This document shows positions 19,776 to 46,434 of a stretch of 46,434 nt of DNA, piece after piece. The DNA is from an uncultured bacterium (GTDB lineage Bacteria; Patescibacteriota; Minisyncoccia; Phycocordibacterales; UBA2100). A program made the translations under genes and the position numbers. Where the stretch lies: positions 71,209-117,642 of the forward strand of contig CAIJXH010000002.1 in the NCBI GenBank assembly GCA_903824595.1. The letters are read 5' to 3'. The stretch's first letter is position 1. Each line of letters begins with the position of its first letter. The notes under the pieces were generated by a model, which made no database searches, was not told where the DNA came from, and saw nothing but the letters and a program-made list of their open reading frames with translations.

Positions 19776-19776
19776 A

Positions 19777-20445
19777 TTATTCCAAAAGTTTTTTCAAATC
19801 ATCAATGAACTTATCAAACATTTTTACCTTGTCGCTTTCCTCAATATTCGTCTCGCTCAATACATAACTGCCGTCTGTATCAATCTCAACAATTGCTCGG
19901 CCTTTCTTTGTGGGTTTTTTGACTGTCAATGTTCCGTCCTCATCGGGTGTTACGAAATAAACTTTTATATGTTTTGTTGCTTTATCAGAGGCAAGTTTTA
20001 TTTTCCAATAACCAGTCTGTGCGATCCTTTCTCGTAAAGTAACCTTGCTAGACAAAACGGCAACAACCCTACTTGTTTTTGGATCATAGATAATTAAATC
20101 AACATCTGGTAAATGCAAACCGAATTCGCCGTAATCAACAGTGATGTTTCTCTTAACCTCACTTAATTCTTTAGAAAGATTTGATCCATTTGTTCTTTCA
20201 AGACTATTTCCATTTACTACTTGCAAATTGAGAGCGTGAACCTCATCTGTAATAATGTACTCAATCAATTTCTCTAAATTCTTACCCTTGAACGCTCGCC
20301 ATGATTGCTCGTGGTCATCGCCAGTAAAATCTTTGCCGTGTTGCTCTTTTGCTTCTTTTAATACATTTGAAATATGCCTGTATGCTTCTATGCCATACTT
20401 TTTCTTTTTCGTATCATATATTTTGATAAGGTCTTGTATTGTCAT
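19777..20445 (-). CDS. Type II restriction endonuclease, BsaWI-like
   Basis: A 222-residue protein between two DNA methylases. The pattern LPDVDLIIYD followed by VVAVLSSKVTLRERIAQTGYWK is a PD-(D/E)XK-type active site of the CCGG-family form (Asp, then Ser-x-Lys, with a following Arg-Glu-Arg). The DHEQSWRAFKGKNLEKLI helix near residues 44-60 is also typical of BsaWI-like enzymes as I recall them. If correct, the target may contain CCGG, but specificity cannot be read from sequence. It starts 4 nt after the upstream methylase. Confidence 0.68.
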   Translation of the reverse strand: MTIQDLIKIYDTKKKKYGIEAYRHISNVLKEAKEQHGKDFTGDDHEQSWRAFKGKNLEKLIEYIITDEVHALNLQVVNGNSLERTNGSNLSKELSEVKRNITVDYGEFGLHLPDVDLIIYDPKTSRVVAVLSSKVTLRERIAQTGYWKIKLASDKATKHIKVYFVTPDEDGTLTVKKPTKKGRAIVEIDTDGSYVLSETNIEESDKVKMFDKFIDDLKKLLE

Positions 20446-20449
20446 ATTT

Positions 20450-21721
20450 TTATTTTTGCATTACTAATATATATTCCGTTGGATAAGCAGAGATTTTGTT
20501 TTTGTCAGTTATACTTGCAAACTTTCCCGTTTTTTTATCTCTAACAGACGGTAAATTTTTTGAGGGTATCTCTCTTTTAATAATATCAGCGACTTTTAGT
20601 CCCAAGTTTTGCAATTGTTCAACAAAAACTTCTGCATTGAGTATCTTAACACCCTTTAAGCTAGTGTTCCCGACAACAATACAGGTTTTCCCTCCTTTCT
20701 TAAGCATTCTTTTCATTTCAAAAAAGACCTGATTCATCTCGCTAAAGTATGTTGAGACTTCTTCGGCAATTTTCTTATCTATACCCAGCAATTCTTTTCG
20801 GATATTTTCTGCGATTGAGCTATTGAGTGTTAAATCTTTTTTATTATGATATGAGGTGCCAATAAAACGCTTTCGGAAATCACTCAAATCTTTTGTATAC
20901 TCTAGCCATAATGCGGTTAGTTGGTGTAAATCAGCATATTCATATGAAGTAACATAGGGCGGAGAAGTAACAATCAAACTAATACTGTTGTCTTTCGCAG
21001 GAATTGTCCTTGCATCTGAACAAACTACCTTGCTTGGAATTTTCAAATATCCTTTCTCTGATAATAATTCAAATAATCGAGCATTGCCACGCAACATCAT
21101 TTTTATTTGTTTTGCAAAAGTCTTGACAGGATCTGACGGCTTTTTTTCAAGATCTCTTGTCGGCTTATTACTTTTTTGCAACCAAATTGAACAATTTTTT
21201 AAGATATTTGAAAATCCGCAAAAGAAAAAGTCTTGAGCGTCTTGATCTTTAATCTTTGAAATTTCTGCAAAGATAAAAGCGAGTCTTCTCTTGTCTTCAG
21301 GCTTGAACCAGTAATCAATTCTCGCATGTTCGTGAATCGTGACTTTTGTTTTTTCATTATAGGTTTCTAATCTTTTTTGCAGTATTGCAAATTCTTTCTC
21401 AATTTTTTCTGGGTTAATCGGAGTGATTTTTGCTTTTGTGATCAAAACAGCAACAGGGTTAATATCAACAGCAATCGACGGTCGCCCCATAACTTTTGAT
21501 TCAACAAGTGTTGTTCCGCACCCACCGAATGGATCAACAATAAAATCACCCTCTTTTGTATATTTTTCCACTAGGCGCGAAACTATCTGTGGAATAAATT
21601 TTGCAGGGTAACGATGATAACCATGCGTAATATAAGTGGTATCTTTTCGTGTCTTATCAGAAAAAGACCACGAATGATCAATCTTTGTTTTATCGAGCAA
21701 CGAGATGATATCTGTATTCAT
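20450..21721 (-). CDS. DNA methyltransferase with TSPPY motif (m4C-type)
   Basis: A 423-residue methylase: FxGxG-type motif VDPFGGCGTTLVESKVMGR (about 62-81) and catalytic TSPPYVTSYEYADLHQ (about 255-270), a hallmark of N4-cytosine methylases. The long middle region probably holds target recognition. It is the first gene of the cassette. TGA-TAAAAT (21729-21737) ends 7 nt before the ATG, so the cassette seems to carry its own leaderless promoter. Low GC content marks it as acquired. Confidence 0.88.
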   Translation of the reverse strand: MNTDIISLLDKTKIDHSWSFSDKTRKDTTYITHGYHRYPAKFIPQIVSRLVEKYTKEGDFIVDPFGGCGTTLVESKVMGRPSIAVDINPVAVLITKAKITPINPEKIEKEFAILQKRLETYNEKTKVTIHEHARIDYWFKPEDKRRLAFIFAEISKIKDQDAQDFFFCGFSNILKNCSIWLQKSNKPTRDLEKKPSDPVKTFAKQIKMMLRGNARLFELLSEKGYLKIPSKVVCSDARTIPAKDNSISLIVTSPPYVTSYEYADLHQLTALWLEYTKDLSDFRKRFIGTSYHNKKDLTLNSSIAENIRKELLGIDKKIAEEVSTYFSEMNQVFFEMKRMLKKGGKTCIVVGNTSLKGVKILNAEVFVEQLQNLGLKVADIIKREIPSKNLPSVRDKKTGKFASITDKNKISAYPTEYILVMQK

Positions 21722-21749: not shown

Positions 21750-23006
21750 TCAATTCCTCCCCAAAATGGAATCCAGCGTATTTTTGCGAACGATCATGCG
21801 TGCGGGGATGTAGCCGGCGATAATGGTTGATACCACGAGTAGCGCCACACGAAATGCCGTGTCGGGAATCGGCGCCACCAAGATACCGTCGCTGAAAGGG
21901 AAATCGATCGGGTGCGCGGCGACCGACGGCACCAGCAGTCCGTACAACACAATCAATCCAATCGCCGAACCAGCGAGCGCGTAGAAAAGCGACTGAAACA
22001 TGTACGAAATCTCGATCGCCGTGCCTGAAATACCAATGCCTTTCAAAATACCGATGTACTTGCGGCGCGTGAGAGCGTTGATGAATATGACGATGAAAAT
22101 GGTGATGGATGCAACAACGAGCCCGACCGACGATATCATGTTGCCAAGCATGGCGAACGTGTTCTTGATGTCGGCGACACCGTTTGGAATAGAATCGAGA
22201 AATGTTTGCACTTTAGCTTTCCTCCCCACCCCGCTATCGCGCACAAGATCGCGAAACGCATCAGGACTACTGCCCTCTTTGAGACGTATGGCAATCTGCG
22301 ACACATTGAAATCATCACGTCCAAATAGTTCGCGTGCTTGACCAGATGTCATATAAATACCTGTCGCGAGCGGTTCGATCTTTGATTTCAAGATTCCTTT
22401 CACGGTCATTTCGCGCGTTGCGCCGTTCACCGTAATGCGCACTACCGTACCAGGATGCACGTTTTTGAGCGGCGTAATACCCGCTTGCTCGCCAAACGCA
22501 TACCGATCGATCAAAAGATCGCCTATCAAGATTTGATCGTAATCGGTCGGATCGAGGTACTGTCCTTCAATCACGAAACGTGAGATGCCCGTTAGCTCAT
22601 TTTCTGCTATCGGATCAATACCCAAAACCTGCGCTCCTGTTTCATTTGGTTTTTCATTGGTGTCGGTACGCGTTTTGTAATTTGCCTCCACCGTACCGCT
22701 GCCTACATACCGCGCCGACAGATCCTGCACCTGCGGCAATGTGTGAATAAAAGAAAGCACGGCGGGAGCATCTTCGATATACCGTTTCGTGGAGAGTGAA
22801 GAGATGATTACATCACCTGTGTATAGCTGGCGGTACTGTTCATTGATTCCTTCGATGAGCCCTACCAAAACACCTGTCACCACGACGAGATTGAGGAACG
22901 TGAGCAGCATCACAAAAACAATAAGTGCATTGGTCCACTTGCTTGAGCGACGTAGCTGTCGCCACGCGAGATAGAAGCCGACGCGTGCATCAAGCGCAAA
23001 CGACAT
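21750..23006 (-). CDS. FtsX/MacB-like ABC transporter permease
   Basis: A 418-residue MacB/LolC-type membrane subunit: a first helix (about 28-50), a large extracytoplasmic domain (about 50-285, MacB_PCD-like, with IEGQYLDPTDYDQILIGD), then three helices of the FtsX domain, including ALTRRKYIGILKGIGISGTAIE, and a C-terminal PARMIVRKNTLDSI. It starts 1 nt after the stop of the membrane fusion protein gene. The matching ATPase is separated from it by 2.6 kb of restriction-modification genes. Confidence 0.92.
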   Translation of the reverse strand: MSFALDARVGFYLAWRQLRRSSKWTNALIVFVMLLTFLNLVVVTGVLVGLIEGINEQYRQLYTGDVIISSLSTKRYIEDAPAVLSFIHTLPQVQDLSARYVGSGTVEANYKTRTDTNEKPNETGAQVLGIDPIAENELTGISRFVIEGQYLDPTDYDQILIGDLLIDRYAFGEQAGITPLKNVHPGTVVRITVNGATREMTVKGILKSKIEPLATGIYMTSGQARELFGRDDFNVSQIAIRLKEGSSPDAFRDLVRDSGVGRKAKVQTFLDSIPNGVADIKNTFAMLGNMISSVGLVVASITIFIVIFINALTRRKYIGILKGIGISGTAIEISYMFQSLFYALAGSAIGLIVLYGLLVPSVAAHPIDFPFSDGILVAPIPDTAFRVALLVVSTIIAGYIPARMIVRKNTLDSILGRN

Positions 23007-23007
23007 A

Positions 23008-24513
23008 CTATTTCTTCGGATTGAGCACGATTGTGTCTCCTTCAACAATTCCCGACTCGATCACCGCCGATCCGAGCGCCGACACCGCACCCACCGTTAC
23101 GGCACGCTCCACGACTCCGCGATCATTTTTTACCTGCATCCACGTGCGTCCGTCTTTTTCATATATTGCCGCTTTCGGTACCACGATCGCATCTGGCACG
23201 TATGCCGTCGTAATAAGCGTGGTTGCCGTCATGCCCGAACGAATCCTCGAATCGGCTGCAGTAAATTGGAGCGTCGTTTTATAGGTAGATACACCGTCGT
23301 GAACCGTCTCTGCAGGATCGATCAATACAACCTTGGCGTCAAACTGTAGATCGCCGTATGCATCAAGCTTTACTGCCGCGGGATCACCCACTTTCACGTT
23401 GACAATATTGATCTCGGGAATATATGTTTCTATTTGAAACGTACCATCACTCACCATCGAAATTTGCGTTGCGCCCGATGATGCAATACTTCCTGTCTTT
23501 GCATTCACTATGGTGACAATCCCAGAAAACGGCGCGACGATGAGCGTCTTCTGAAGCTGAGCTTGCGCGCTTGCCACATCTGCTTGCGCCGACTCCACCT
23601 GCGCGCGCTGTGCCGTAATATCTTCTTGTGTCGCACCCGCTTGCTCAAGCTCGAGATTTTTCTGCTGTGTATCAAGTGCGGCAGCATCGGCAGTCACCAA
23701 AGAAAGCGCGGTGTTGATGGCGGTGCGAGCTCCCCCTGTCGAAACAATCCATGTATCGATAGTCGCTTGTGTGGTTACTAGGTTGGGAATGGCATGATTG
23801 AGCGCGTCGTTCGCATCCGAAAGAACCATGGCAATCTGCGCAAGATTATGTGTCGCTTCGCGGATAGAATCTTCCGTATTTCCAATTTCTAAAATCGCAA
23901 CACTTCTCTGCCATGTCGAGAGCATCATTTCCGCACTCACTCGCTCTGTTTCAACTCGTGATGCCAACTGCGTGTCAGTCACCGAGAACAGCAAACGCGG
24001 ATCGGTGCGTGGATTTTGTATAAATTGATCGAGCGTATTATGCACGGCGCTATCAGCAGCTCTATACGCATCGCGAATCGCATTCACAAGCGCCGCCCGA
24101 CTACTCGTTACCATTGATTCCGTAACGGCGACTTGCTCGGCGCGCGTACCTGCTTCCAATGAGGAGAGACGGGCATTTTGAGTTTCAAGAGCTGCTTGAC
24201 GCTGCATCACCGCCGCGCGAGCGTCTCCATTCTCTACGGCGGCAAGTATCGTTCCTTCCGATACACGCTGACCGACAACCGCATACACCGCGGCAATTCT
24301 CCCGCTTTGAGCAAATCCCATATCTACATTTTTCGCCGCAACAACTTTCCCCGATATCGACACCTGTTGGCTAAACGCGGTACGATGCACGACTTGCGTC
24401 TGAGATACTTCAACCGTACTGTGTACAAAGAAGAACCAACCACACACCACTCCTGCCACCAGTAGCAAGATCCGCGTCTTATACATCATCACATACGCTT
24501 GCAACATTCGCAT
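23008..24513 (-). CDS. Membrane fusion protein (MacA/HlyD type)
   Basis: A periplasmic adaptor of an ABC exporter. The 501-residue product has an N-terminal membrane anchor (about 12-30), a lipoyl/barrel half (VSISGKVVAAKNVDMGFAQ, QRVSEGTILA), a very long coiled-coil hairpin (about 80-310), the returning lipoyl half (IVAPFSGIVTIVNAKTGSIA), and a C-terminal beta barrel (KTTLQFTAADSRIRSGMTAT). The hairpin is longer than in MacA. As the probable host has a single membrane, the protein likely works at the cell surface. It starts the exporter operon; the true start may be any of three nearby ATGs. Confidence 0.9.
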   Translation of the reverse strand: MRMLQAYVMMYKTRILLLVAGVVCGWFFFVHSTVEVSQTQVVHRTAFSQQVSISGKVVAAKNVDMGFAQSGRIAAVYAVVGQRVSEGTILAAVENGDARAAVMQRQAALETQNARLSSLEAGTRAEQVAVTESMVTSSRAALVNAIRDAYRAADSAVHNTLDQFIQNPRTDPRLLFSVTDTQLASRVETERVSAEMMLSTWQRSVAILEIGNTEDSIREATHNLAQIAMVLSDANDALNHAIPNLVTTQATIDTWIVSTGGARTAINTALSLVTADAAALDTQQKNLELEQAGATQEDITAQRAQVESAQADVASAQAQLQKTLIVAPFSGIVTIVNAKTGSIASSGATQISMVSDGTFQIETYIPEINIVNVKVGDPAAVKLDAYGDLQFDAKVVLIDPAETVHDGVSTYKTTLQFTAADSRIRSGMTATTLITTAYVPDAIVVPKAAIYEKDGRTWMQVKNDRGVVERAVTVGAVSALGSAVIESGIVEGDTIVLNPKK

Positions 24514-35771: not shown

Positions 35772-36389
35772 TTACATCAAAAATTGAATTAAAAATGCGC
35801 CTAAGATAGGTAAGATTAGGTTATCTATTCCGTAAATTGACAGGAATTCCACGATGGTCAGGATCGCACTAATAACAACCAGCTTATAACCAAAAACTGG
35901 AGCAAAAAAGAAAGTAAGGATTAGCGTGCAGATAAAGAAAATAGTCGACCCTTCGGCACTCTTGGTGTTTCCAAAGAACTGAACCTTATGTTTACCAAAT
36001 TTCTCTCCGCCTAAACCCGCTAAGGCATCTGATATTCCCATAACGAGCACACCGAACTGAAAGGCTGCTATGCTGTGGGGAAGAAATACAAAAGCGGAAA
36101 GTGCTTCTCCGAGAGGCAGGAAAACATCTCCAAAAGATTTGCGATCAACATCGTGAATGGAGGATAAGAAAGTGGTTTTACGTCCTATAAATATTAAACT
36201 CGCAAAGAACAAACAGACTATAACTATGGTTAGTTGATTTAAGAAAAGTGGTGAAATTGCGGCGATAAGAGCTGCACCAATATGAGTGACCCTCCTCGAA
36301 ACATTTGTGCTTAGAGAGAATCTTCTTTTGACTATCTCAACGACGCCAATGAAAATGCAGGATATCAATACAAAAAAGAGAAGATTCAT
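35772..36389 (-). CDS. CTP-dependent dolichol/phytol kinase-like membrane protein
   Basis: A 205-residue polytopic protein of the CTP-using prenol kinase group (SEC59/VTE5/DGK1-like), which phosphorylates long-chain alcohols. Seen: RRVTHIGAALIAA (32-44), IGRKTTFL, FGDVFLPLGEALSAFVF, the signature GISDALAGLGGEKFGKHK (118-135) and TKSAEGS (142-148). About six membrane helices. It is the last gene of the lipid operon, starting in an ATGA overlap with the GNAT gene. The substrate (polyprenol, phytol, diacylglycerol) cannot be fixed from sequence. Confidence 0.82.
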   Translation of the reverse strand: MNLLFFVLISCIFIGVVEIVKRRFSLSTNVSRRVTHIGAALIAAISPLFLNQLTIVIVCLFFASLIFIGRKTTFLSSIHDVDRKSFGDVFLPLGEALSAFVFLPHSIAAFQFGVLVMGISDALAGLGGEKFGKHKVQFFGNTKSAEGSTIFFICTLILTFFFAPVFGYKLVVISAILTIVEFLSIYGIDNLILPILGAFLIQFLM

Positions 36390-37390
36390 ATATTAAATTC
36401 AAATGCAGCATATTGATGAAAAAAGACCGCCTCTTCTTTAGGAAAATTCTTTATGTTGTTGCCTTCCCTGATAAGGGCGTAGATCATTTTTTTAAATCCG
36501 GCTTTTTCGGCATCTATATGCACTTGATATGCAAGGGCATTCCCCAATCCCATGCCTTGATATTGCGGTAGTACAGCAATAGTTTTGCAAATGAGAGTCT
36601 GATCATCTTCTCGGGAAGTACTACAAAACCCTATGATCTCATTGCCCTTATACAACAGATAAAGCGAATTGAGATGTGCTGTCATTTTCTCAGATGAGTA
36701 CAGCTGCATGAACTCTTTTTCGTTTAACTCGGTGTAGCCCCAACTTCCGCTGAAAACCGTCTTTGAAATATCTGTGATTTTTCGCATCTCTTCAAGACCT
36801 ACAGTCTTTGTTTCCATTATTGAAAAACCGAGATCCTGCATCTTCTCGAGAGCAGCTTTGTCTATAACCCTCAACACAATATTGAAAGGCTCGCGTGACG
36901 CCGAATAATAAGGGATTTCGGCCGCCGGTTTATTGGATGTGAGAAAATCGTAGTAATAAGTCTCGCACAAAGGCTCCGCCTTAAAAAAGGGAGAGCCATC
37001 ACTCTCTTTAATACACCTATACTGGTGCCAGATACTCCCGCTTACAGGGCCTTTTAAGACCGAGATTCCTTTTGCTTTAGCGAGTTTAGTTAAACTGCTC
37101 CACAGCGAGCTAAAGATTGCCGCGTCATCCGAAAATTCCATAAACCCAAAGAATGCTTCTCCTTGGGGCAAGCGTTTATCGACAATTAGGGCAATATGCG
37201 CTTTCATCTGTCCATCTGCGTGCCCTGCAATAGGATAGAACGACACATTGTCGTTATTTAAGCAGAACTCCCAAGCCTTCTTTGAGTCGCTCAAAAAGAA
37301 GTCAAAATTTCTGTAATTACCGTATTTCTTCTGAAGCAATTGCGTGAATTCGTCAGCAGCTGAATCAGGTGTGTATGGATTAATTTGCAT
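36386..37390 (-). CDS. GNAT-family N-acyltransferase
   Basis: About 334 residues. The C-terminal GNAT domain has the acetyl-CoA motif A, KTIAVLPQYQGMGLGNALAY, and the preceding YLLYKGNEIIGFCSTSR strand. The N-terminal half (about 1-200) has the PIAGHADGQMKAHIALIVD and LKGPVSGSIWHQYR segments, suggesting a second, degenerate GNAT repeat or substrate domain. The start at 37390 leaves an 11-nt overlap with the upstream gene; ATG 37435 is an alternative. In this operon it could N-acylate the amino group left by the BtaA-type reaction, which is inference. Confidence 0.75.
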   Translation of the reverse strand: MQINPYTPDSAADEFTQLLQKKYGNYRNFDFFLSDSKKAWEFCLNNDNVSFYPIAGHADGQMKAHIALIVDKRLPQGEAFFGFMEFSDDAAIFSSLWSSLTKLAKAKGISVLKGPVSGSIWHQYRCIKESDGSPFFKAEPLCETYYYDFLTSNKPAAEIPYYSASREPFNIVLRVIDKAALEKMQDLGFSIMETKTVGLEEMRKITDISKTVFSGSWGYTELNEKEFMQLYSSEKMTAHLNSLYLLYKGNEIIGFCSTSREDDQTLICKTIAVLPQYQGMGLGNALAYQVHIDAEKAGFKKMIYALIREGNNIKNFPKEEAVFFHQYAAFEFNI

Positions 37391-39665
37391 AATCAAATGT
37401 CTTAATGATACCGCTTGATCCGTCAATTTCGACAATCTGATTATCCCGTAAGCTGGTTACCGCATCTGTAGCACCAATAACGGCCGGTATTCCCAACTCT
37501 CTAGCCACAATAGAAGCGTGAGACAGTACACCTCCATGCTCTATAATCAGTCCCTTGGAAAGCGCAATAAGCGAAGTCCATCCGGGGTCGGTGTGCGAAG
37601 TGACTAAAATATCAAAGTCGATATGGGATGGCATCGAAAAATCTTTGAATACTTTGACTTTGCCTCTGATCAGCCCAGGTGACGCCGGTCGCGCGCGGAT
37701 TATGTCCGATTCGATTTTGCTGACGCCCTTAAGAGGGGGCGGTTGATTATTTACGCTTGAGAAATGGGACAGAGGAATCAGATCCTTAAAAGAATCATAA
37801 AGTCGTTTCCGCTCGGCGACCTTCTGTAATAGATTCGCATTCGTTTTTGCCGTGGGTGTGAGGATCTCTTCTAGATAAAGATAGAAAATATCATCCGGCG
37901 TTTCAATCACTCCCTCATCAGCGAGAATATTACCCATACGCCTGAAAAGTTTTCTAGCCATCCCAAATGTGTTTGAACGCAGGAGACGAAATTCCTCGCG
38001 TCGAGATGCATATTTTTTAAACTTTGCCAAAATAATTTTAGCCGCTACCTTTTTAAAAAACGGTAACGCTAACTCGATCTGCCTAGCAGCAGATTTTGAC
38101 TGATAACCACGATACGCCTTCAGGACAACCAACAGTTTTTTAGAGTCCTCATCAACACCTATAGATTCAAGTTTCAACTCGTTTGCAAACCTTCCCCCGA
38201 AAGAGTGCAAATATTCTTGAAGAACGGTGCAGATTTTTGGATAGCGTTGCACTTCGCTATTGAATGCCTCAACATTCTCAGATTCAATTGATTGCCATAA
38301 AATCTTATGTTCATGCATTTGCGTACTGAGAGACGCAAGGGCTGATACTTGCTCTGTTGCTTTACTGGGGAACATGAGGGCTTGTTGCAGGTCTTTCTCA
38401 CCAAGCATCTTTTTTAAAATGCCTAAATAGGTCATTACAAAAAAGTCGTTCTCTAGGGTGATATACCATCTACGCAAGAGTCTTTTATTGAGACTCTCAA
38501 ATAGATCGATACATTGCTCGTAAGTCAGGCGCTCGAAATCATGATTTCGAAGTTGACTTAAATGGCTTTTGACGCTCGACTTAAAGTAAGCAGCGGTGAT
38601 TCCGTACACGGCTACTTTAGCGGCAACAATAAGCGGATAAAAAATCTTTAAAACAATGGAGGGTTTAATTGCCGTCCCGACTTCTTCCCTGACGTTGCTC
38701 GTGATCATCAACTCGAAATTCTGCTTATTTCTCCGGTACCCAGGCACAAATTCTGCCATGCGATACCAATTGTTCATGTTGTAGTACATCCGACCATAGA
38801 AAAAACCTAAGAGGTTTTCAAAAACATCGGAGTGTTTTTCAAGTCTTTTCTTGGAGACTCCTGACATATACAGCAAGTCTTTGTATACTTGTGCATATAC
38901 CATCTTTGCAAAAGTACAGGTGAGTGGGAGCACTATTCCTGAGTAACTTTCTGCAATGTTGGCACTATCAAAATATTCCCGCTTCGCCACTGCGAAATCT
39001 CTGGTGATTGGACGAGACTGGAGTATATAAAGTTGCCCATCTTTAAAGCACCATTCGATATCCTGCGGTGCCCCGAAGAATTTTTGTATCTTGGCTGCGA
39101 TTTCGGCTAGCTGTTTTATATCCGAAACCCTGAGTGATTCTTTATCCCTTGTCTCAGCTATGATTTTATCTCCTATAAAAAACTTCACCGTTTTCTCCTG
39201 AATAGTTTTATTGAGTATGGTGCCATTCTTATCGCATATATACTCATCGCACGCTTCACCATTAACGACTGGCTGGCAGAGCCCAAACGTGGCGTTTATC
39301 ACTACGGTGTCCTTGTCTACTTCTGTAAACATCACTCCTGCTAAGTCGCTCGGTATGAATCCCTGGACTATGACTGCCCCAGGTATGCCCTTGAAAGAAG
39401 CGATGACTCTTACAACCTCACCAGCCACGTTTTCTTTGGCAACTCCTATCGCAGAATAAAAGTGCCCTGCAAAAGATTGATTTTTCGAGTCTTCACCTTT
39501 TGCGGAAGAGCGTACCGCAAAAAAAGAAACTCGTGGTAGCTGTTCATCAATCTTTTGCAAAATGTCTTCCGATGACCAGCTGCTGTCGCATACAAAAAAT
39601 TCAGGCACTTCAAAACCGCCCTGTCTTAGTCTTTCTAGCGCGTATGCCTTGCCGCCTTTTTCCAT
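37380..39665 (-). CDS. PEP-synthase/rifampin-phosphotransferase-like enzyme
   Basis: A 761-residue three-part phosphotransferase. N-terminal ATP-grasp (PPDK_N; FFAVRSSAKGEDSKNQSFAG near 50-70, VIVQGFIPSDLAGVMFTEV, DIEWCFKDGQLYILQSRP near 200-218); a long helical middle (about 225-640) without recognised PEP-synthase barrel; and a C-terminal swivelling domain with phosphohistidine His716 in GGVLSHASIVARELGIPAVIG. The C-terminal PEP/pyruvate TIM barrel of true PEP synthase is missing. This is the architecture of rifampin phosphotransferase, where ATP's beta-phosphate passes through His to a small molecule. Here the acceptor is probably a lipid intermediate. Confidence 0.82.
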   Translation of the reverse strand: MEKGGKAYALERLRQGGFEVPEFFVCDSSWSSEDILQKIDEQLPRVSFFAVRSSAKGEDSKNQSFAGHFYSAIGVAKENVAGEVVRVIASFKGIPGAVIVQGFIPSDLAGVMFTEVDKDTVVINATFGLCQPVVNGEACDEYICDKNGTILNKTIQEKTVKFFIGDKIIAETRDKESLRVSDIKQLAEIAAKIQKFFGAPQDIEWCFKDGQLYILQSRPITRDFAVAKREYFDSANIAESYSGIVLPLTCTFAKMVYAQVYKDLLYMSGVSKKRLEKHSDVFENLLGFFYGRMYYNMNNWYRMAEFVPGYRRNKQNFELMITSNVREEVGTAIKPSIVLKIFYPLIVAAKVAVYGITAAYFKSSVKSHLSQLRNHDFERLTYEQCIDLFESLNKRLLRRWYITLENDFFVMTYLGILKKMLGEKDLQQALMFPSKATEQVSALASLSTQMHEHKILWQSIESENVEAFNSEVQRYPKICTVLQEYLHSFGGRFANELKLESIGVDEDSKKLLVVLKAYRGYQSKSAARQIELALPFFKKVAAKIILAKFKKYASRREEFRLLRSNTFGMARKLFRRMGNILADEGVIETPDDIFYLYLEEILTPTAKTNANLLQKVAERKRLYDSFKDLIPLSHFSSVNNQPPPLKGVSKIESDIIRARPASPGLIRGKVKVFKDFSMPSHIDFDILVTSHTDPGWTSLIALSKGLIIEHGGVLSHASIVARELGIPAVIGATDAVTSLRDNQIVEIDGSSGIIKTFDYAN

Positions 39666-39669
39666 ATCG

Positions 39670-40560
39670 CTAATGAGCTAAAAAGTAGATTATTAAATTG
39701 AAAATACCGTACATAAGCAGGAAGGACAGCTGCATTAACTGATCGGTTTGATGAGTCTTTTTTAACCAGTGAATCAGAGTTGCAAAACATACAAGTAATG
39801 TTGCACATAGAGAAAAAATAAGGAGGCCAGTTATATGCGGCGAAAGTAGTGTGGTGATTTGAAAGAAAAGTACCGCATTGAGTAAAATCAGAAGTAAGTA
39901 AATGACCATCGAGTTATTGAAGCCCAAATACCACGTGTAGGTATCCTTGCCCGTGCCATCATTGCCAGGTATTTTAAGCTTACGTACAAACTCAAAGACA
40001 ATTGTGCCTACAGTCGTAAAGAGGAAGTGCGTGAATACAAGGTTGTTTAGTGGAATAGGATTCGCGAACATCGCATACACAAAAACCTGCATCAATAGCA
40101 TCTGTAGCAAATTAGCGCCATTGTAGAGAAAAAAATGACGTCGGATTTTTTCTCCAACAAAAAATTCCTTACCTGCTAAATGTGAATAGACAAGCATGCA
40201 TACGGCTGCGATGAGAGCCGACCGTCCGGCTATTGCCGCAATAACTACAAGAATGGCAATAGCTGCAAAATCTACATACCGTAATTCTTCTTTCGAAATT
40301 ATGCCCATTTGGACGGGCCGAGACGCATGATGAATGTTGTCATGGCCGTAATCACGGTGTTCGTCGATAACTCGTATGTGTAATAAGTATGCAAGTGATG
40401 CAATAACTGCCAGTGCCACTTGAATAACTGTCGGATAAACTGAAACAATCACTGCAGAACTAAGCGCGGCTGGAAGTAGACTTAACCCCAAGACTGCGAT
40501 GGGGAAACGCTCCTTTTGGTAGGTATAAAACTTTCTACTTGTAGCAATAGCTTTTTTCAT
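39670..40560 (-). CDS. UbiA-like prenyltransferase
   Basis: An integral membrane enzyme of 296 residues with about eight or nine helices. The first Asp-rich motif is RVIDEHRDYGHDN with D66, D70 and D74 and the following RPVQMGIIS (81-89), very close to the UbiA pattern. The second (EFVRKLKIPGNDGTGKDTYTW, about 190-210) contains D201 and D206. These motifs bind Mg and prenyl diphosphate. The acceptor is unknown. It overlaps the BtaA-like gene by 4 nt and is followed after 4 nt by the phosphotransferase gene. Confidence 0.85.
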   Translation of the reverse strand: MKKAIATSRKFYTYQKERFPIAVLGLSLLPAALSSAVIVSVYPTVIQVALAVIASLAYLLHIRVIDEHRDYGHDNIHHASRPVQMGIISKEELRYVDFAAIAILVVIAAIAGRSALIAAVCMLVYSHLAGKEFFVGEKIRRHFFLYNGANLLQMLLMQVFVYAMFANPIPLNNLVFTHFLFTTVGTIVFEFVRKLKIPGNDGTGKDTYTWYLGFNNSMVIYLLLILLNAVLFFQITTLLSPHITGLLIFSLCATLLVCFATLIHWLKKTHQTDQLMQLSFLLMYGIFNLIIYFLAH

Positions 40561-41639
40561 TTGTATATAGTGTGGGCATGAAAGCTGTCGTAGAAAAACA
40601 CTTTGTCTTTAGCGCGCAGATTATGCAGCTGGTTCTCGTCGGTTTTTATGAGCACAGATTGCTGAGCTGGATATGATCGTTTGACGAGATTATTCCAATA
40701 CGCTATTACGGCACCAGATTTTGCAGTCCGGATTATTTCTTGCCAAACAATGTCATTGTCTGCGATTGAGAGGGCCTCAAAAATATCCGAGAGATTGAAC
40801 TTGGAGAATGTGTCATCGGGAATTGAACGCAAATAGGTCAAAAGATTATCTGTTGAGATAGAAAGCGCGGATTCCGGTATTTTTCTTAATAATTGATAAC
40901 CGTGTTCTTCAAGATAGGGCGGGAGTTCTTTGTCATACCCTCCTGTCAGGCTGTAATGCAAAAAATAGTTTCCTTGAATGGGTACTGATTTTAAATGACG
41001 CTCTAACCGCTGGCGATAAACATCCGCAACGGTCTGGCCCTCCGTATAAGAAAACATACCTTTTTGACGTGCGTATCTTTTAAGCATTAAGCGGTTTGAT
41101 GCCAATCCAAAAAAGAATCGCCAGCGCCATGAATTCCACTGACGGGTATAAAAGTCTCTTTGCTCTTGAATATTCTTGCAGTTGAGCAGTTTGTAAATAG
41201 TCCGCCTTGAATGAATAAGCGGCAGTATGTAACGTGCGAAAAATATGATGAAGCGCTCAAAGCGTCCACAATGAATTACGCCTTTTTCTATCAAATCTTT
41301 ATGACGCGACCACCAGGTGTCGACGGTGGGAGATAAGTTTGCTCGAACCTTCCGAAAAAGCTCCTCTCGATGTTTTGAATCTCTCGCGCCCATCAACTCT
41401 AAGTATTCGTCATAGGCAAGACATTTCGCAGCACTCTTCTTGAATTCGAGTAGATAGTTTTGTGCCGGATTCAGATCGATTGAATCAACCTTCCCCGCAC
41501 CGGCCAATAATAGGGTCAAGGTATTATCGCCACCGGACGTAATCGATAGCACATGATCCGTTGGGTGAATTGAAAGTGCCTCGATTAATACTTGTGGATC
41601 TTCCCAGCACTGACTGTAGTTAATGAGTTTTTTATCCAT
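40557..41639 (-). CDS. BtaA-like SAM 3-amino-3-carboxypropyltransferase (DUF3419)
   Basis: BtaA moves the 3-amino-3-carboxypropyl group of SAM onto the hydroxyl of diacylglycerol, the first step of betaine lipid synthesis. The 360-residue product has the hallmarks: YSQCWEDPQ (8-16), LSITSGGDNTLTLLLAG (30-46), SIDLNPAQNYLLEFK, then the long helical middle and the C-terminal DTFSKFNLSDIFEALS and GAVIAYWNNLV. The acceptor may differ from diacylglycerol. No BtaB-type N-methyltransferase is recognised next to it. It overlaps the reductase gene by 8 nt. Confidence 0.87.
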   Translation of the reverse strand: MDKKLINYSQCWEDPQVLIEALSIHPTDHVLSITSGGDNTLTLLLAGAGKVDSIDLNPAQNYLLEFKKSAAKCLAYDEYLELMGARDSKHREELFRKVRANLSPTVDTWWSRHKDLIEKGVIHCGRFERFIIFFARYILPLIHSRRTIYKLLNCKNIQEQRDFYTRQWNSWRWRFFFGLASNRLMLKRYARQKGMFSYTEGQTVADVYRQRLERHLKSVPIQGNYFLHYSLTGGYDKELPPYLEEHGYQLLRKIPESALSISTDNLLTYLRSIPDDTFSKFNLSDIFEALSIADNDIVWQEIIRTAKSGAVIAYWNNLVKRSYPAQQSVLIKTDENQLHNLRAKDKVFFYDSFHAHTIYK

Positions 41640-42579
41640 GAGAATGTTCGGAGTCTCGAAAAAACGTCAGTGCTTTTATCATGTAGTCATGATTTATGAG
41701 ATTATCCTCGCAGATAGAAGGTGGAAAAGGGTAATCCATAGACCAGTAAGGGCTAAAGTGTTGAGAAACTCGATAGAGCGCTGCCTCCTCCTCTGTCAGA
41801 TCCATGCCCCCGAACTCTTGAAAGGACACATCTAGTATTTTAACACCATCGAGCAGATTAAAAAACCTGAGTGTCTCGTCTAAAGCCCAGCCCGAACGAG
41901 GCGGAGCAGGATTGGTCACATACAAGGTTTCAAGCCGATTATCGCGTATGGCTTTACCAATGCTCACCGCTGCTTGATCCACTGGCACCATATTGGACTC
42001 ACCAAGCATTTTGGGGAACCGCAGCACGCTATTTTTTGCCGAGGCTGACTGAACAGCCGACACGAATGCTCGGACAATTTGATAAAAGCCAGAAAAATTC
42101 CTTATTTCTCCTGTGCGACTATTTCCCGTTAGGACAGCGGGTCGGAATATGCCGTGAGGCACCCCTGATTTGACCAATACCTGCTCGGCATTGTATTTAT
42201 CTTGTTCATATCTATTATTGAAACACTCGACTTTACCTTCTGGCCTATACACAAAAGCTGTACTGACAAAATACACAGGCACGTTCAGTTTTTCGGCCAA
42301 CGCGACCACCCTATACATCATCATCTCATTCTTGTTGTGGGCTTCGCGAAAATGCACGACGCCAGCACAATGAATAATGCAATCTACCTGATCTGAAAAT
42401 TCGATCTCTTTTTCTGTAAGATCGCATTCGATTATCTGTTCAAATTTTGTCTTCTGAACGGGTAAGGCATCGGACATGCCCGGTCTTATGCAAGGAATGA
42501 GATCAAAACCATGTTGAACAAGGTCTAAAGCGACCTCATATCCCAAATTTCCAGTAATGCCGGTAAGTAGTGCTTTCAT
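41632..42579 (-). CDS. Extended SDR: NAD(P)-dependent reductase/epimerase
   Basis: A 315-residue Rossmann enzyme. Seen: nucleotide motif TGITGNLGYEVA (6-17), CIIHCAGVVHF, catalytic Y124-x-x-x-K128 in NRYEQDKYNAEQ, and GIFRPAVLTGNSRTGEIRNF. It is closest in feel to the NAD_binding_4 group (thioester or fatty acyl reductases) rather than sugar epimerases, but this is not certain. It is the first gene of the overlapping lipid operon and could supply a fatty alcohol or reduce a lipid carbonyl. Confidence 0.78.
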   Translation of the reverse strand: MKALLTGITGNLGYEVALDLVQHGFDLIPCIRPGMSDALPVQKTKFEQIIECDLTEKEIEFSDQVDCIIHCAGVVHFREAHNKNEMMMYRVVALAEKLNVPVYFVSTAFVYRPEGKVECFNNRYEQDKYNAEQVLVKSGVPHGIFRPAVLTGNSRTGEIRNFSGFYQIVRAFVSAVQSASAKNSVLRFPKMLGESNMVPVDQAAVSIGKAIRDNRLETLYVTNPAPPRSGWALDETLRFFNLLDGVKILDVSFQEFGGMDLTEEEAALYRVSQHFSPYWSMDYPFPPSICEDNLINHDYMIKALTFFRDSEHSHG

Positions 42580-42644: not shown

Positions 42645-43289
42645 TTAATTTGCGCCCGACCACGCCTTGCGATTGAAAAGCAACGTAGCCAAGAGAACAA
42701 AATATACGGTGCCAATAATCCAGCCGGTAATGTACAGGGTTTGCGTGTCTTTGTTGGTAATGAGCATGACACCTCCTACAACTTCCGCAATTAGCCCGTA
42801 CCGTACAAGTCCAGAATACGGTGCCTTAAATTTTGAAGCGACCAGATCGATTACAGGTAATGTGATGAGTGCCAATGCGAACGTATAGAGTATTTGTACT
42901 AACGGGGTCAGGTTAAAGAAGAGGAATCCCTCCGGCGAAATGAAAGCGTTGGCAGGTGCTACATACCTCCCGACATAAAATATACCAGCGACAGCAACGG
43001 CACCCAGGACAGTCATTAAGAGATTGGTGCTTGCCGAGGTCTGCTGAAGTGATACGTAAAGAAATACGACAAGAGAGACTAGAAAGGCGATCGCGCCAAA
43101 AGTGATGAACGACAATAACTGATCTGGATTAATGTACCCAATCGTCCATAGCGCAAATGCGGCAGCATCGAGCAAAAGGCCAACGCCGAAGTATTTAAAG
43201 AGAGGATCTTTTCTGCTAACAAATTTACCTCCTAAAAGAACGGTTGCCACCACGTTGCTTACAAAAAATAGTACTACGGAGGTATTCAT
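42645..43289 (-). CDS. Seven-helix membrane protein of unknown function
   Basis: A 214-residue hydrophobic protein with about seven membrane segments and short loops; the C-terminus is basic (FNRKAWSGAN). I do not recognise the family. The layout (NTSVVLFFVSNVVATVLLGGKF, YINPDQLLSFITFGAIAF) is that of small sensor or carrier proteins, with no catalytic motif visible. It is 65 nt upstream of the lipid operon and in the same direction, and is divergent from the plsC gene. Confidence 0.7.
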   Translation of the reverse strand: MNTSVVLFFVSNVVATVLLGGKFVSRKDPLFKYFGVGLLLDAAAFALWTIGYINPDQLLSFITFGAIAFLVSLVVFLYVSLQQTSASTNLLMTVLGAVAVAGIFYVGRYVAPANAFISPEGFLFFNLTPLVQILYTFALALITLPVIDLVASKFKAPYSGLVRYGLIAEVVGGVMLITNKDTQTLYITGWIIGTVYFVLLATLLFNRKAWSGAN

Positions 43290-43390
43290 AATAAATATGT
43301 GCTTAGAGCACTAGCTCATTAATATACCTAGAAGTGTACCACGGTTCTGTTTTCTTCATATATACTTATGCACATAGGTCTATTTCACCC

Positions 43391-44074
43391 ATGCCTCGAT
43401 ATAAAATCATGCCCATCATATTTCAGCGCCTCGCGTGGGGACCCGTTAGGCTTGTGATGTGGCTGTTTGCAGGCCTCGAAATTAAAGGGGCCGAAAACCT
43501 AAAAAAGGTTGAGGGTAACTTTATTATCGCGAGCAATCATACGAACCAACTCGACCCCATCTTACTCGTCGCATGTTTCCCATTCTTTTCAAAATATATA
43601 CCGCTGATGTTTGCTTCTCGGGAGAAAGATTTTTACGCAAAAACTGGATGGAAGCGTTGGGTATACGGAGATACATTCTTTCGTCTAATGGGAGCACACC
43701 CTATGTATGGGGGTCTAAATAATTACGAAGCCGCTCTCCGTCATCATCTTGAATTTGCGCGCAAGGGAGAGAGTATCTGTATTTTCCCTACTGGTAAGAA
43801 AAAAAATGGCGTCATCGGAAAAGCCAAAGGAGGTGTCGGCTACCTCATGCATGCAACGAATCTACCCATATTACCTGTAAAAATACAGGGACTGGAAGGG
43901 ATGAGTTGGCTTTCTGTATGGACAGGTAAACACAAGGTAACCGTAACTTTCGGAGAACCACTACAAGTAAAAGACATCTTTATTAACACGAGTTTTATCC
44001 AGTTGGTGCAGGACCAAAACCCCTATGCTGACGCTGCCGCTGCAATAATGGAAATAGTCGAACAACTCAACTAG
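43391..44074 (+). CDS. plsC: PlsC-type 1-acylglycerol-3-phosphate acyltransferase
   Basis: Adds an acyl chain to lysophosphatidate or a related lipid. The 227-residue product has motif I NHTNQLD (H50-x4-D55), motif II near YAKTGWKRWVYGDTFFRLMG, motif III FPTGKKKNG (FPEG variant) and motif IV LPILPVKIQG. It lacks a long N-terminal membrane domain. ATG 43391 is preferred over 43334 because of the conserved IMPIIFQRLAW start. A TATACT (43361-43366) could serve as its -10. It is the only plus-strand gene in the lipid block and overlaps the next gene tail-to-tail by 8 nt. Confidence 0.88.
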   Translation: MPRYKIMPIIFQRLAWGPVRLVMWLFAGLEIKGAENLKKVEGNFIIASNHTNQLDPILLVACFPFFSKYIPLMFASREKDFYAKTGWKRWVYGDTFFRLMGAHPMYGGLNNYEAALRHHLEFARKGESICIFPTGKKKNGVIGKAKGGVGYLMHATNLPILPVKIQGLEGMSWLSVWTGKHKVTVTFGEPLQVKDIFINTSFIQLVQDQNPYADAAAAIMEIVEQLN

Positions 44075-44807
44075 CGCGGTGTTTAATGCTAGAAAACCTT
44101 AGCATTATCAAAATGATATAAGCAAGAAGCAATCCCGGCATAGTCAATGCGAGGCCTTCCAAGTCCCCCAGGCTCCCTAAACCGCCTAACCCAAACTCAC
44201 CGCTTCCCCCTAAAAAAGCCGAGGGGATAAGAACTGAAAATCCAGCAACCAAGACCATTCCTAGCATTTGGATAAAAGGAATAAAGTTTAATAAAAAAAT
44301 AACATTCCTCGCTACGATGATTCTTGATATCCAAGGATCTAGGTGGGATTGAGTATCGGAAAATTTCCTACTAAATAAGTAATTTTCTAGGCAGAAAAAA
44401 ATTGCAAATATTACAAATACCATTAACATCTCTGCCCAATATGGCCACAGAACAGGGATGCAAAATAAGATAAACAAATCGAGTCCAAATACCAGTAGTA
44501 GTGACATGACCATAAAGATCCGATTTGTGAGAGGTATATCCTCCTTGCCCCAGACACTCCTTACAGGTTGGTTTGCAACAATCACTGTCTTATTAACCGC
44601 AGGTAGTGGTTGAAGGGGCGGTACTGTAGTTGGAGGTGTGGGAACTTGGGCCGTTGGGATCGAAGGAGTTTTTCCTAAAGTCGTAAATGCTTCCGTAACA
44701 TCCTGCTCGCTCCAACCTTGCGAAATAAGTGCCAGCCAAATTGCTTCTTTTTTGATTCCAGCTGCAAGCTGTTGTCGAATGTAATCTAAAAGTTGAGGGG
44801 TAACCAT
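44067..44807 (-). CDS. Membrane protein with CPR-type N-terminal helical motif
   Basis: A 246-residue protein. Residues about 3-43 (LLDYIRQQLAAGIKKEAIWL, then LISQGWSEQDVTEAF) form the short UBA-like helical motif that occurs at the N-terminus of many CPR membrane proteins. A Pro/Thr-rich linker (about 48-75) follows, then four or five membrane segments and a Gly/Leu-rich loop (FLGGSGEFGLGGLGSLGD). The function is unknown. It is useful as a lineage marker. It overlaps plsC tail-to-tail by 8 nt. Confidence 0.75.
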   Translation of the reverse strand: MVTPQLLDYIRQQLAAGIKKEAIWLALISQGWSEQDVTEAFTTLGKTPSIPTAQVPTPPTTVPPLQPLPAVNKTVIVANQPVRSVWGKEDIPLTNRIFMVMSLLLVFGLDLFILFCIPVLWPYWAEMLMVFVIFAIFFCLENYLFSRKFSDTQSHLDPWISRIIVARNVIFLLNFIPFIQMLGMVLVAGFSVLIPSAFLGGSGEFGLGGLGSLGDLEGLALTMPGLLLAYIILIMLRFSSIKHRAS

Positions 44808-44861
44808 ATACTGAAAAGGATACCACCTTTATTTTAGGAATAAACGGGTTATACACAGCGC

Positions 44862-45986
44862 TTATTCGGTACGCTTTAGGCGTATTCGAAATAGGCTCAT
44901 TGAGTTTATTTCAAACGCAATCTTTGCCCCATGCATCCAAAGCTCCCACAAGCGATAAAAGGCTGGGTCGAATTTTTGCTCTATATCTGATCGGTGACTT
45001 TCCAAGTTTTTTATCCATTCCGTCATGGTTCGGATATAGTCTGGTGTATCGTCACGAAATTCCTCCACTGAAAATCCTGCCTGAGTAGCAACAGAGAGAA
45101 GCTCCTCCTTAGCGGGCAAGTATCCCCCAGGAAATACATATTTCAATGTCCATTTGTCCACGGGGCGCGGCTTGTAACGACCCGTGAGTTGAAGGACGAG
45201 AGGTCCACCCGGTTTTAGCACTTTATGGAGTCGCCCAAAAAACATGGACAGCTTTTGTTGACCGATATGCTCTATTGATTCGAGCATTATGATCCCATCA
45301 AACTGCGTACTTGGAAGATCTTCGACCATGTCTCGGTATTCAAGCGATACCTCCTTTTCTAAATGATCTTTTTTAATTAGTTCCCGACAATATTCAAGTT
45401 GCGCGTTGCTTAAGGTATAGCCCGTTATGTGCCAATGCATCTCTTTTGCCGCATACTGAGCAAATCCACCCCACCCAAAACCGAGGTCGAGAATGGATGC
45501 TCCAGAAGGTAGATTTAACCACTGACCCAAAAGAGCAATCTTTTTTTGTTGAGCGTCCGCTAGACTTTCAGACCCTGTTTCATAGCGTCCGGCAGAGTAC
45601 GACATTGTTTTATGATCCAAGATCATTTGGAAGAAATCGTTGCCCAGATCGTAGTGATAGGCAATCTGGTCTTTTCTGTTACGAGGTACGCTCCAATTAG
45701 AAAGAAGTGTGGCGAAAATAAGTCTTGGGGAACGACGCACATGTTTGAACTGATGTCTTAGGCGAAGATAGGCTTCCAGATCACCTTCAACTCGGAGTTT
45801 TCCTTCCATGTAGGCCTCTCCAAATCCAAGGGCTCCTTGTGCTAATAATCTTTGGACGGTTTTTTCATCCTCAAAAACCAATGTAAAAGTTGTTGAGTCC
45901 CCAGTGCCGTAAAAGTGCTCGGTACCATCCCAAAGTTTGATAGAAAACTTGGGGCCAGTAAACTGGCTAAAGATCTCTTGTATCAT
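44862..45986 (-). CDS. Cyclopropane-synthase-like lipid methyltransferase
   Basis: A 374-residue member of the CFA synthase family, which methylates unsaturated acyl chains of phospholipids using SAM. Seen: YHYDLGNDFF (110-119), SAM motif LDLGFGWGGF (166-175), ESIEHIG (236-242) with the family Glu, and KYVFPGGYLP (about 282-291). Residues that hold bicarbonate in E. coli CFA synthase, as I recall them (Cys139, His266, Tyr317), align here with Ala/Gly, Gln and Ile, so the reaction may differ. I chose ATG 45986, which has GAGGTGA about 12 nt upstream; ATG 46019 lies only 8 nt after a terminator hairpin and longer forms run through it. Confidence 0.85.
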   Translation of the reverse strand: MIQEIFSQFTGPKFSIKLWDGTEHFYGTGDSTTFTLVFEDEKTVQRLLAQGALGFGEAYMEGKLRVEGDLEAYLRLRHQFKHVRRSPRLIFATLLSNWSVPRNRKDQIAYHYDLGNDFFQMILDHKTMSYSAGRYETGSESLADAQQKKIALLGQWLNLPSGASILDLGFGWGGFAQYAAKEMHWHITGYTLSNAQLEYCRELIKKDHLEKEVSLEYRDMVEDLPSTQFDGIIMLESIEHIGQQKLSMFFGRLHKVLKPGGPLVLQLTGRYKPRPVDKWTLKYVFPGGYLPAKEELLSVATQAGFSVEEFRDDTPDYIRTMTEWIKNLESHRSDIEQKFDPAFYRLWELWMHGAKIAFEINSMSLFRIRLKRTE

Positions 45987-46027
45987 CCGAAAGTAGTTCA
46001 CCTCTTCATTATGCCTCATGTCGATAC

Positions 46028-46056
46028 AAAAAAGCACCCTAATTAGGAGCTTTTTT
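46028..46056. terminator. Bidirectional terminator before the CFA-like gene
   Basis: AAAAAAGC (46028-46035) pairs with GCTTTTTT (46049-46056) around CCTAATTAGG, with A and T runs on both sides. In the minus direction it ends 8 nt before ATG 46019, so it either ends an upstream transcript or acts as an attenuator. Confidence 0.75.
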
Positions 46057-46434
46057 GTAATTTTTTCCCTACTTAGACCATCGACGCGTCTCGAGCGCGA
46101 TGACCTAGCTCGACTTGGCGGAGGGTGAGGGATGCTCCGAAGAGCTCGCTTCGGCTCCGTCGAGCCAAAGCTCCTCTCGGGCCTGCTCACGGCGTCCCGT
46201 CTGCTGACGGGTCCCGCGCCGTTCGCTTTCGAATCCCTCCCCCTTCCTGCAAAAATACAATCGCCCGACACTCCGTGTCGTTCTCATTATTTTTGCGGTG
46301 ATGTATTAACCTTTGCGCGAACCCACTTCGCACGCGCGGAGCGCGTGGTGGCTTGAAACTGCCTCGTACGCTCCGATTGCGCTGTGATGCCAACCAATGC
46401 GCCTCGGACACGCTCGCGGACTCGCGTGTGCAAA
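46057..46434. other. GC-rich, hairpin-rich stretch without a gene
   Basis: About 380 nt with no supportable gene. It has several inverted repeats (CCGAAG/CTTCGG around 46137-46155; CACGCGC-GGA-GCGCGTG at 46331-46347; ACACGC/GCGTGT near 46408-46430) and the right copy of the 38-bp repeat. A TTCGAATCCCTCC near 46224 resembles a tRNA T arm, but no tRNA folds around it. Confidence 0.5.
46261..46298 (+). repeat. 38-bp direct repeat, right copy
   Basis: Same orientation as 34530-34567 with 37 of 38 bases identical. The two copies bracket about 11.7 kb that holds the Fic gene, the IS3 remnant and the lipid genes. Confidence 0.85.

Follow-up and report, generated by a model that had tools for sequence, protein, structure and literature searches.

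The window analysed here is a stretch of 46,434 nucleotides from an uncultured bacterium of the Candidate Phyla Radiation (CPR; Patescibacteriota, contig CAIJXH010000002.1). Six consecutive open reading frames (ORFs) on its minus strand form an operon that combines a BtaA-like enzyme with a UbiA-like transferase, two putative phosphotransferases and a GNAT protein, and that may belong to a lipid pathway. A first annotation made from the DNA letters (the sequence-only reading) had placed these six genes at 35772–42579, and all were found at these coordinates:

35772..36389, minus strand: CTP-dependent lipid (prenol or diacylglycerol) kinase-like membrane protein, 205 aa (PF01148, E = 0.006; motifs; structural model)
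36386..37390, minus strand: tandem-GNAT acyl, acetyl or aminoacyl transferase, 334 aa (PF00583, E = 8e-10)
37380..39665, minus strand: putative PPDK/rifampin-phosphotransferase-like ATP:lipid phosphotransferase, 761 aa (PPDK_N, E = 1e-34; PEP-utilizers, E = 2e-22; catalytic-type His716)
39670..40560, minus strand: UbiA-superfamily intramembrane prenyl or alkyl transferase, 296 aa (PF01040, E = 0.0016; 6m31, E = 2e-7)
40557..41639, minus strand: predicted BtaA-like (DUF3419) 3-amino-3-carboxypropyl transferase, 360 aa (PF11899, E = 5e-75)
41632..42579, minus strand: extended SDR reductase, optional, 315 aa (NAD_binding_4, E = 5e-14; Epimerase, E = 3e-10)

The tight junctions claimed for these genes (overlaps of 4–11 nt or a 4-nt gap) are likewise correct. 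The SDR and BtaA genes overlap by 8 nt, BtaA and UbiA by 4 nt, PPDK and GNAT by 11 nt, and GNAT and the CTP kinase by 4 nt; UbiA and PPDK are separated by 4 nt. The 11-nt overlap is counted from the ATG at 37390, which homologues favor as the start of GNAT over the TTG at 37435 where the listed ORF begins. From the operon to the end of the window the G+C content is 41–44%, as against 47–57% across most of the preceding 14 kb. Since the operon genes recur with 40–65% identity and in the same order in other lineages, sequence comparison puts their coding status beyond doubt.

Pfam profiles assign DUF3419, PPDK_N with PEP-utilizers, GNAT and the extended SDR strongly. The UbiA and CTP_transf_1 matches are weak, and both lie under the gathering cut-off (16.9 bits compared to 24 for CTP_transf_1). 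These two assignments are strengthened by the match of the UbiA family profile to digeranylgeranylglyceryl phosphate (DGGGP) synthase and by a confident model of the CTP-kinase-like protein. The SDR, of the NAD_binding_4/Epimerase family, retains TGxxGNLG and YExDK motifs among its relatives; its profile matched no solved structure at E ≤ 1e-8.

When GTDB contigs were scanned once with the window's BtaA protein, at least nine loci were returned, eight of them from CPR bacteria: Daviesbacteria, a Parcubacteria genome, Staskawiczbacteria, a Paceibacterota, Levyibacteriota, Kaiserbacteria, Elulimicrobium and one "uncultured bacterium", the BtaA of which groups with that of the window. Gene order is conserved across lineages, which the sequence-only reading had named as support for one pathway. 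The arrangement BtaA–UbiA–PPDK–GNAT–CTP kinase is identical in loci L003–L008 and L010, and holds in L009 up to the PPDK gene, where that contig ends; GNAT is conserved in seven CPR loci besides the window. The SDR had been counted as a member of the pathway. It is found in only five of the nine CPR loci (window included), being absent from L003, L006, L007 and L009 and also from the alphaproteobacterial operon described below, and can be ruled out as a core gene. In L006 and L007, UbiA and PPDK are separated by an additional radical SAM gene (L006:3775–9103; L007:11976–13130, the latter identified solely by its match to the former). The PPDK of L006 is missing the ATP-grasp domain at its N terminus, and a PPDK_N-like ORF stands apart from it at the operon's end; the two may make up a split enzyme.

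Pairwise distances of the five core proteins correlate in the six complete loci (r = 0.54–0.83), as expected for a block that is inherited or moved together. The operon is rare in the phylum of the window (1 of 380 genomes), and a BtaA search of 51 congeners found none that carries it. It is an accessory block and has probably moved horizontally. Transport on viruses was considered and dropped, as a scan of viral contigs with the BtaA alignment gave no relative.

The gene set also occurs in a cultured bacterium. On a plasmid of the alphaproteobacterium Roseinatronobacter sp. S2, genes for UbiA, PPDK, DUF3419, two "hypothetical" proteins and an AMP-binding ligase form one overlapping operon, and the two hypothetical proteins match the CTP kinase profile (E = 3e-24) and the GNAT profile (E = 1e-16). 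The locus tags P8S53_RS20210–RS20230 belong to this operon. The strain came from a pH 12 serpentinizing spring (PMC10508151). The CPR loci together with this operon rule out one-genome noise.

A third group of relatives is represented by L011, a locus recorded under an uncultured proteobacterium; a MYXO-CTERM-like protein suggests that it belongs to the Myxococcota. DUF3419 occurs in 68 of 237 genomes of this phylum, where the subsets PPDK–BtaA, UbiA–PPDK–BtaA and BtaA–CTP kinase recur. We counted a BtaA as operon-like when it scored 389 bits or more in an iterated profile. This line is arbitrary, and moving L083 (388 bits, on a 3.6-kb contig, of the operon type by its position in the tree) across it changes little. 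Among the 21 operon-like loci, the retrieved stretch contains PPDK in 14 (in L052 and L060 at a distance of 7–8 kb) and UbiA in nine; the CTP kinase directly adjoins BtaA in five, and GNAT occurs in two. L061 holds a GNAT homologue. None of the 20 other DUF3419 loci contains PPDK (Fisher p = 4e-6). MMPL exporters adjoin BtaA in several loci of the phylum, and AMP-dependent ligases lie beside BtaA in non-CPR loci. In L059 (9322–13154) the gene directly after BtaA encodes a fusion of HMG-CoA reductase with an APH-type kinase, and a similar fusion lies 3.5 kb downstream of BtaA in L061 (13765–16179). The gene set is conserved across distant phyla. The sequence-only reading would have been refuted had the genes met only in this genome. 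They do not: many CPR lineages and an alphaproteobacterium have five of the six as a set, and the third group has subsets.

In Streptomyces clavuligerus a PPDK–UbiA pair lies beside AfsA without BtaA; there, the "hypothetical protein" that follows the Rph-like PPDK is a UbiA homologue. The product of AfsA is an allylic phosphate, so a kinase that converts a phosphate to a diphosphate and an alkyl transferase would fit this locus too. Streptomyces plasmids (L064:13027–18404; L065:4669–9423) combine AfsA with an isoprenylcysteine-methyltransferase-like gene and an Rph-like PPDK.

The BtaA-like protein matches DUF3419 over residues 6–356 (E = 5e-75), that is, over the full-length domain. NYSQCWED and the S-adenosylmethionine (SAM)-site Asp55, within a [VI]D motif, are invariant in its alignment, and Asp55 is shared with BtaA proteins that are linked to BtaB. 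Core motif residues common to CPR and BtaB-linked BtaA are Y8, E13, D14, G37, D55, N57 and K67. To our knowledge, aminocarboxypropyl transfer is the only characterized activity of the family, and it would be the natural expectation for the operon-type protein. A search for solved relatives of this BtaA gave nothing convincing. Characterized BtaA works with a partner methyltransferase, BtaB, and uses diacylglycerol (DAG) as substrate (PMC8752610). BtaB was not found beside BtaA at any operon-type locus; it lies next to BtaA at L077, L079 and L084–L087, and loci with BtaB next door come from Rhizobium, Shinella and, in four cases, the L011 phylum. In a tree of 53 sequences all BtaB-linked BtaA proteins are split from the operon type (support 100/99), and the CPR proteins form one clade (100/100). 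The PPDK-linked proteins are not one clade, as eight proteins without PPDK or BtaB nearby nest among them. DUF3419 genes with neither partner nearby occur at L066–L072, L074, L076 and L078 of the L011 phylum, eight of which group in a single clade with strong support, and these possibly represent a third type of context.

The closest solved sequence to the UbiA-like protein is DGGGP synthase (6m31, E = 2e-7 with the family profile). Its first acidic motif, R-x-x-D-[ED]-x-[KR]-D-x-x-x-D, is kept in every relative and aligns with the ND..D...D of DGGGP synthase, so that the NDxxDxxxD motif is present as a DExxDxxxD-type variant. The PPDK-like protein contains an ATP-grasp domain (PF01326) and a mobile His domain (PF00391), in which His716 within GGVLSHASIVAREL is invariant; Arg52 and the ATP-grasp motifs are invariant as well. 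Rifampin phosphotransferase (5fbs/5hv1, E ~ 1e-89) is the closest solved sequence over the ATP-grasp and His domains. Residues 228–443, the central domain, show no match to 5fbs, as expected for an enzyme with a different substrate, and the NCBIfam score for rifampin phosphotransferase proper is 184 compared to a cut-off of 999. The CTP kinase keeps RR/RK..H, GxSDA...G and KS.EG motifs, both in CPR and in homologues of 440–480 aa that adjoin BtaA elsewhere; we take these to be the motifs of the CTP-dependent lipid kinase family (Dgk1/SEC59/VTE5 type). A search for solved relatives of its sequence gave nothing convincing, and its model (pLDDT 83) has a weak best fold match in the PDB, CDP-DAG synthetase 4q2e (E = 0.24, probability 0.89). 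The GNAT protein is modelled as a tandem GNAT fold (pLDDT 69). It resembles a variety of tandem GNATs, with low TM-scores, and these matches single out none of the candidate classes (bacterial ceramide synthase, FemX, N-acyl amino acid synthase).

The genome of the window, which is 98% complete, contains no match for IspG, a trans-polyprenyl synthase (PF00348), UppS, a ketoacyl synthase or a CDP-alcohol phosphotransferase (PF01066) in searches limited to these five families. The same searches gave matches in 9 to 14 of 14 control genomes. Among 30 genomes drawn from the genus, 10 carry PF01066, which makes its absence frequent there without being universal. Because no genes for prenyl, fatty-acid or phospholipid head-group synthesis were detected, lipid substrates are probably salvaged by this bacterium. 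The operon UbiA is the only match to its family in the genome. If it needs a prenyl diphosphate, salvage would be required, and the two kinases could supply this compound.

The conserved gene set points to the five genes acting in one lipid pathway, very probably towards a single unusual lipid. Tentatively, and at somewhat less than even odds, we propose that they encode a conserved bacterial route to a membrane-associated lipid with an aminocarboxypropyl (homoserine-type) head. The reactions, their order and the product are what we infer from the enzyme families. In a first step, the CTP-dependent kinase would phosphorylate a lipid alcohol of the membrane, for which a prenol salvaged from the host is the likeliest candidate. 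The PPDK/Rph-like enzyme, carrying a phospho-His derived from the β-phosphate of ATP, would add a second phosphate to give an allylic diphosphate. With this diphosphate UbiA would alkylate an acceptor, which might be a glycerol hydroxyl, the group on which DGGGP synthase acts, and BtaA would then move the 3-amino-3-carboxypropyl group of SAM to a remaining hydroxyl. Finally, the tandem GNAT might acylate the product. This is the weakest step, and the absence of BtaB is our single argument for acylation of the amino group. The two-step activation and UbiA transfer, already part of the sequence-only reading, gain support from a host without detected prenyl-diphosphate synthesis, from UbiA–PPDK pairs elsewhere and from HMG-CoA reductase near BtaA in two loci. 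The homoserine head also suggested there is likely given DUF3419 membership, with the reservation that these proteins stand apart from BtaB-partnered BtaA.

In CPR the conserved unit extends past the six genes (42645–46271) and can be read up to the right edge of the window, where the contig stops:

42645..43289, minus strand: TM7, a multi-span membrane protein of the CPR version only, in all nine CPR loci (41–71% identity), with no Pfam family above cut-off
43334..44074, plus strand: PlsC-like acyltransferase, divergently transcribed (PF01553, E = 7e-13), in the same place in seven of the eight other CPR loci
44067..44807, minus strand: TM9, a membrane protein without Pfam family, CPR version only, in the same place in L003, L005, L006, L007, L009 and L010
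44862..46271, minus strand: cyclopropane-fatty-acid (CFA) synthase-like methyltransferase (CMAS, E = 3e-62), in the same place in L003, L009 and L010

With the window included, TM7 lies upstream in 9 of 9 CPR loci, the divergent PlsC gene in 8, TM9 in 7 and the CFA synthase in 4, counts which for the last three are affected by several contigs that end too early to show these genes. The CFA synthase, whose similarity to relatives starts near residue 90, has no match in L006 and L007, where the contigs continue beyond TM9. L009 holds several TM9-like copies in a row. In the CPR version of the proposed pathway, PlsC, the CFA synthase and sometimes the SDR would adjust the acyl chains.

Several observations weigh against this proposal. 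A polyprenyl synthase occurs in three of the other CPR hosts and UppS in seven, which means that not every host depends on prenol salvage. Intact active sites had been named as a test of the sequence-only reading. UbiA motif 1 (as its acidic variant), the CTP kinase motifs and the PPDK histidine are kept; the second Asp-rich motif of UbiA (DxxxD) is altered to D/E..GKDTY or EE...SY forms. From the 34 columns that are invariant in six BtaB-linked BtaA proteins, 17 are kept in the CPR proteins and 17 are not. Because half of them are lost, the acceptor of this BtaA may not be DAG. The operon-type DUF3419 protein might even transfer another SAM-derived group or use a non-lipid acceptor, in which case the operon would serve some other lipid modification; the 17 columns not kept, its separation from BtaB-linked BtaA and the lack of an adjoining BtaB would agree with this. 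Given that both types have the SAM-site Asp and some of the core motifs in common, and that the family has the one characterized activity named above, we consider this highly doubtful.

The PPDK-like protein is about equally distant in NCBIfam from RedH (5e-55), PigC (4e-52) and rifampin phosphotransferase (4e-54), which means that it could ligate two molecules instead of phosphorylating one. As a PigC/RedH-type condensing ligase it would use ATP to activate one partner before joining it to the other, UbiA would alkylate the product, and the result would be an exported specialized or signalling metabolite instead of a bulk membrane lipid. The AMP-dependent ligases and MMPL exporters next to BtaA in non-CPR loci fit such a role, as do Streptomyces homologues beside AfsA (γ-butyrolactone-type). 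CPR bacteria, however, keep the whole set and have PlsC and CFA synthase next to it, a combination suggestive of membrane chemistry, and their genomes carry very few specialized-metabolite genes. We regard this alternative as unlikely.

Related CTP kinases also phosphorylate DAG, and structural comparison of the CTP kinase gave a single neighbour, CDP-DAG synthetase. The kinase could consequently be a Dgk1-type DAG kinase in a route without any prenol, with BtaA making diacylglyceryl homoserine from salvaged DAG and with PPDK and UbiA modifying either the head group or a by-product. PlsC and CFA synthase next to the CPR operon are consistent with this idea, and DAG is the known substrate of BtaA (PMC8752610). 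Such a route leaves the strictly kept UbiA–PPDK pair unexplained, including the pair without BtaA in S. clavuligerus, and the adjacency of HMG-CoA reductase points to isoprenoids. We consider it unlikely on balance, and we retain the prenol-based pathway as our working interpretation.

The families are known, but their combination appears to be undescribed: in agreement with the sequence-only reading, no description was found among open-licence PubMed Central (PMC) papers, a scope outside which lie most subscription papers and all preprints. A survey of 675 CPR genomes reported no complete known lipid pathway (PMC7242380). In a CPR-rich 0.1-μm filtrate, 31% of the lipids were lysolipids, all with betaine heads, and several lysolipids correlated with Kaiserbacteria, Falkowbacteria and Parcubacteria; this lipidomic study does not mention BtaA (PMC7242380). 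The operon, present in members of Kaiserbacteria and Parcubacteria among others, is a candidate for head-group synthesis encoded by CPR bacteria themselves, which are very small and probably host-dependent. Being rare and without BtaB, it is no general answer to the betaine lysolipids of CPR. In its most specific form, our proposal is that salvaged prenols and acyl chains would serve CPR bacteria that otherwise make no membrane lipid as material for a phosphate-free glycerolipid of a class not recognized before, a prenyl or alkyl ether whose homoserine head is N-acylated. The same pathway would operate in free-living Alphaproteobacteria and in relatives of L011, and the operon would be one genetic source of the homoserine- or betaine-type lysolipids in CPR-rich filtrates. 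That all of this holds together is distinctly unlikely. The finding extends the DUF3419 family beyond diacylglyceryltrimethylhomoserine (DGTS). It also raises the possibility that certain Rph-like phosphotransferases act as lipid kinases. Since a copy resides on a plasmid of a cultured bacterium, the chemistry is directly testable.

Elsewhere in the window (19092–21721, minus strand), genes for a BsaWI-like type II restriction endonuclease and two N6/N4 DNA methylases lie partly in low-G+C DNA (37% at 20–22 kb). They are flanked by an ABC-transporter ATPase gene (18405–19088) and a MacB/FtsX-like permease gene (21750–23048), and look like a restriction-modification island inserted in an efflux operon.

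Parts of the operon resemble several known systems. Mycobacterial Rv2047c, which contains epimerase and PEP-utilizing domains and lies in an operon with pks12, likewise places an SDR and a PEP-utilizing domain beside the synthesis of a lipid phosphate (mycoketide); it is a single fused protein with an unproven role, and neither BtaA nor UbiA is reported with it (PMC7058343). Rifampin phosphotransferase has ATP-grasp, central and C-terminal His domains in the same order as the operon PPDK and a catalytic-type His that is kept, but the central substrate-binding domain differs and nothing points to a rifamycin substrate. DGGGP synthase of archaeal ether-lipid synthesis, the closest solved sequence to the operon UbiA, acts on a glycerol hydroxyl; unlike it, the operon protein has the variant first motif and an altered second motif, and none of the archaeal ether-lipid genes was seen adjoining it. 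Like the btaA–btaB systems of Rhodobacter sphaeroides and rhizobia, the operon encodes a DUF3419 protein in which the SAM-site Asp and the core motifs are present and for which aminocarboxypropyl transfer to a lipid hydroxyl is expected. It differs in having no BtaB, in occupying another branch of the DUF3419 tree, and in its partners UbiA, PPDK, GNAT and CTP kinase. Phytol salvage by VTE5 (phytol kinase), VTE6 (phytyl-phosphate kinase) and the UbiA-type enzyme HPT also combines a CTP-kinase-family enzyme with a second phosphotransferase and a UbiA enzyme. In contrast to that pathway, the second phosphotransferase of the operon is PPDK/Rph-like and not of the VTE6 type (DUF92 family), and the operon has no tocopherol head-group genes but BtaA and GNAT.

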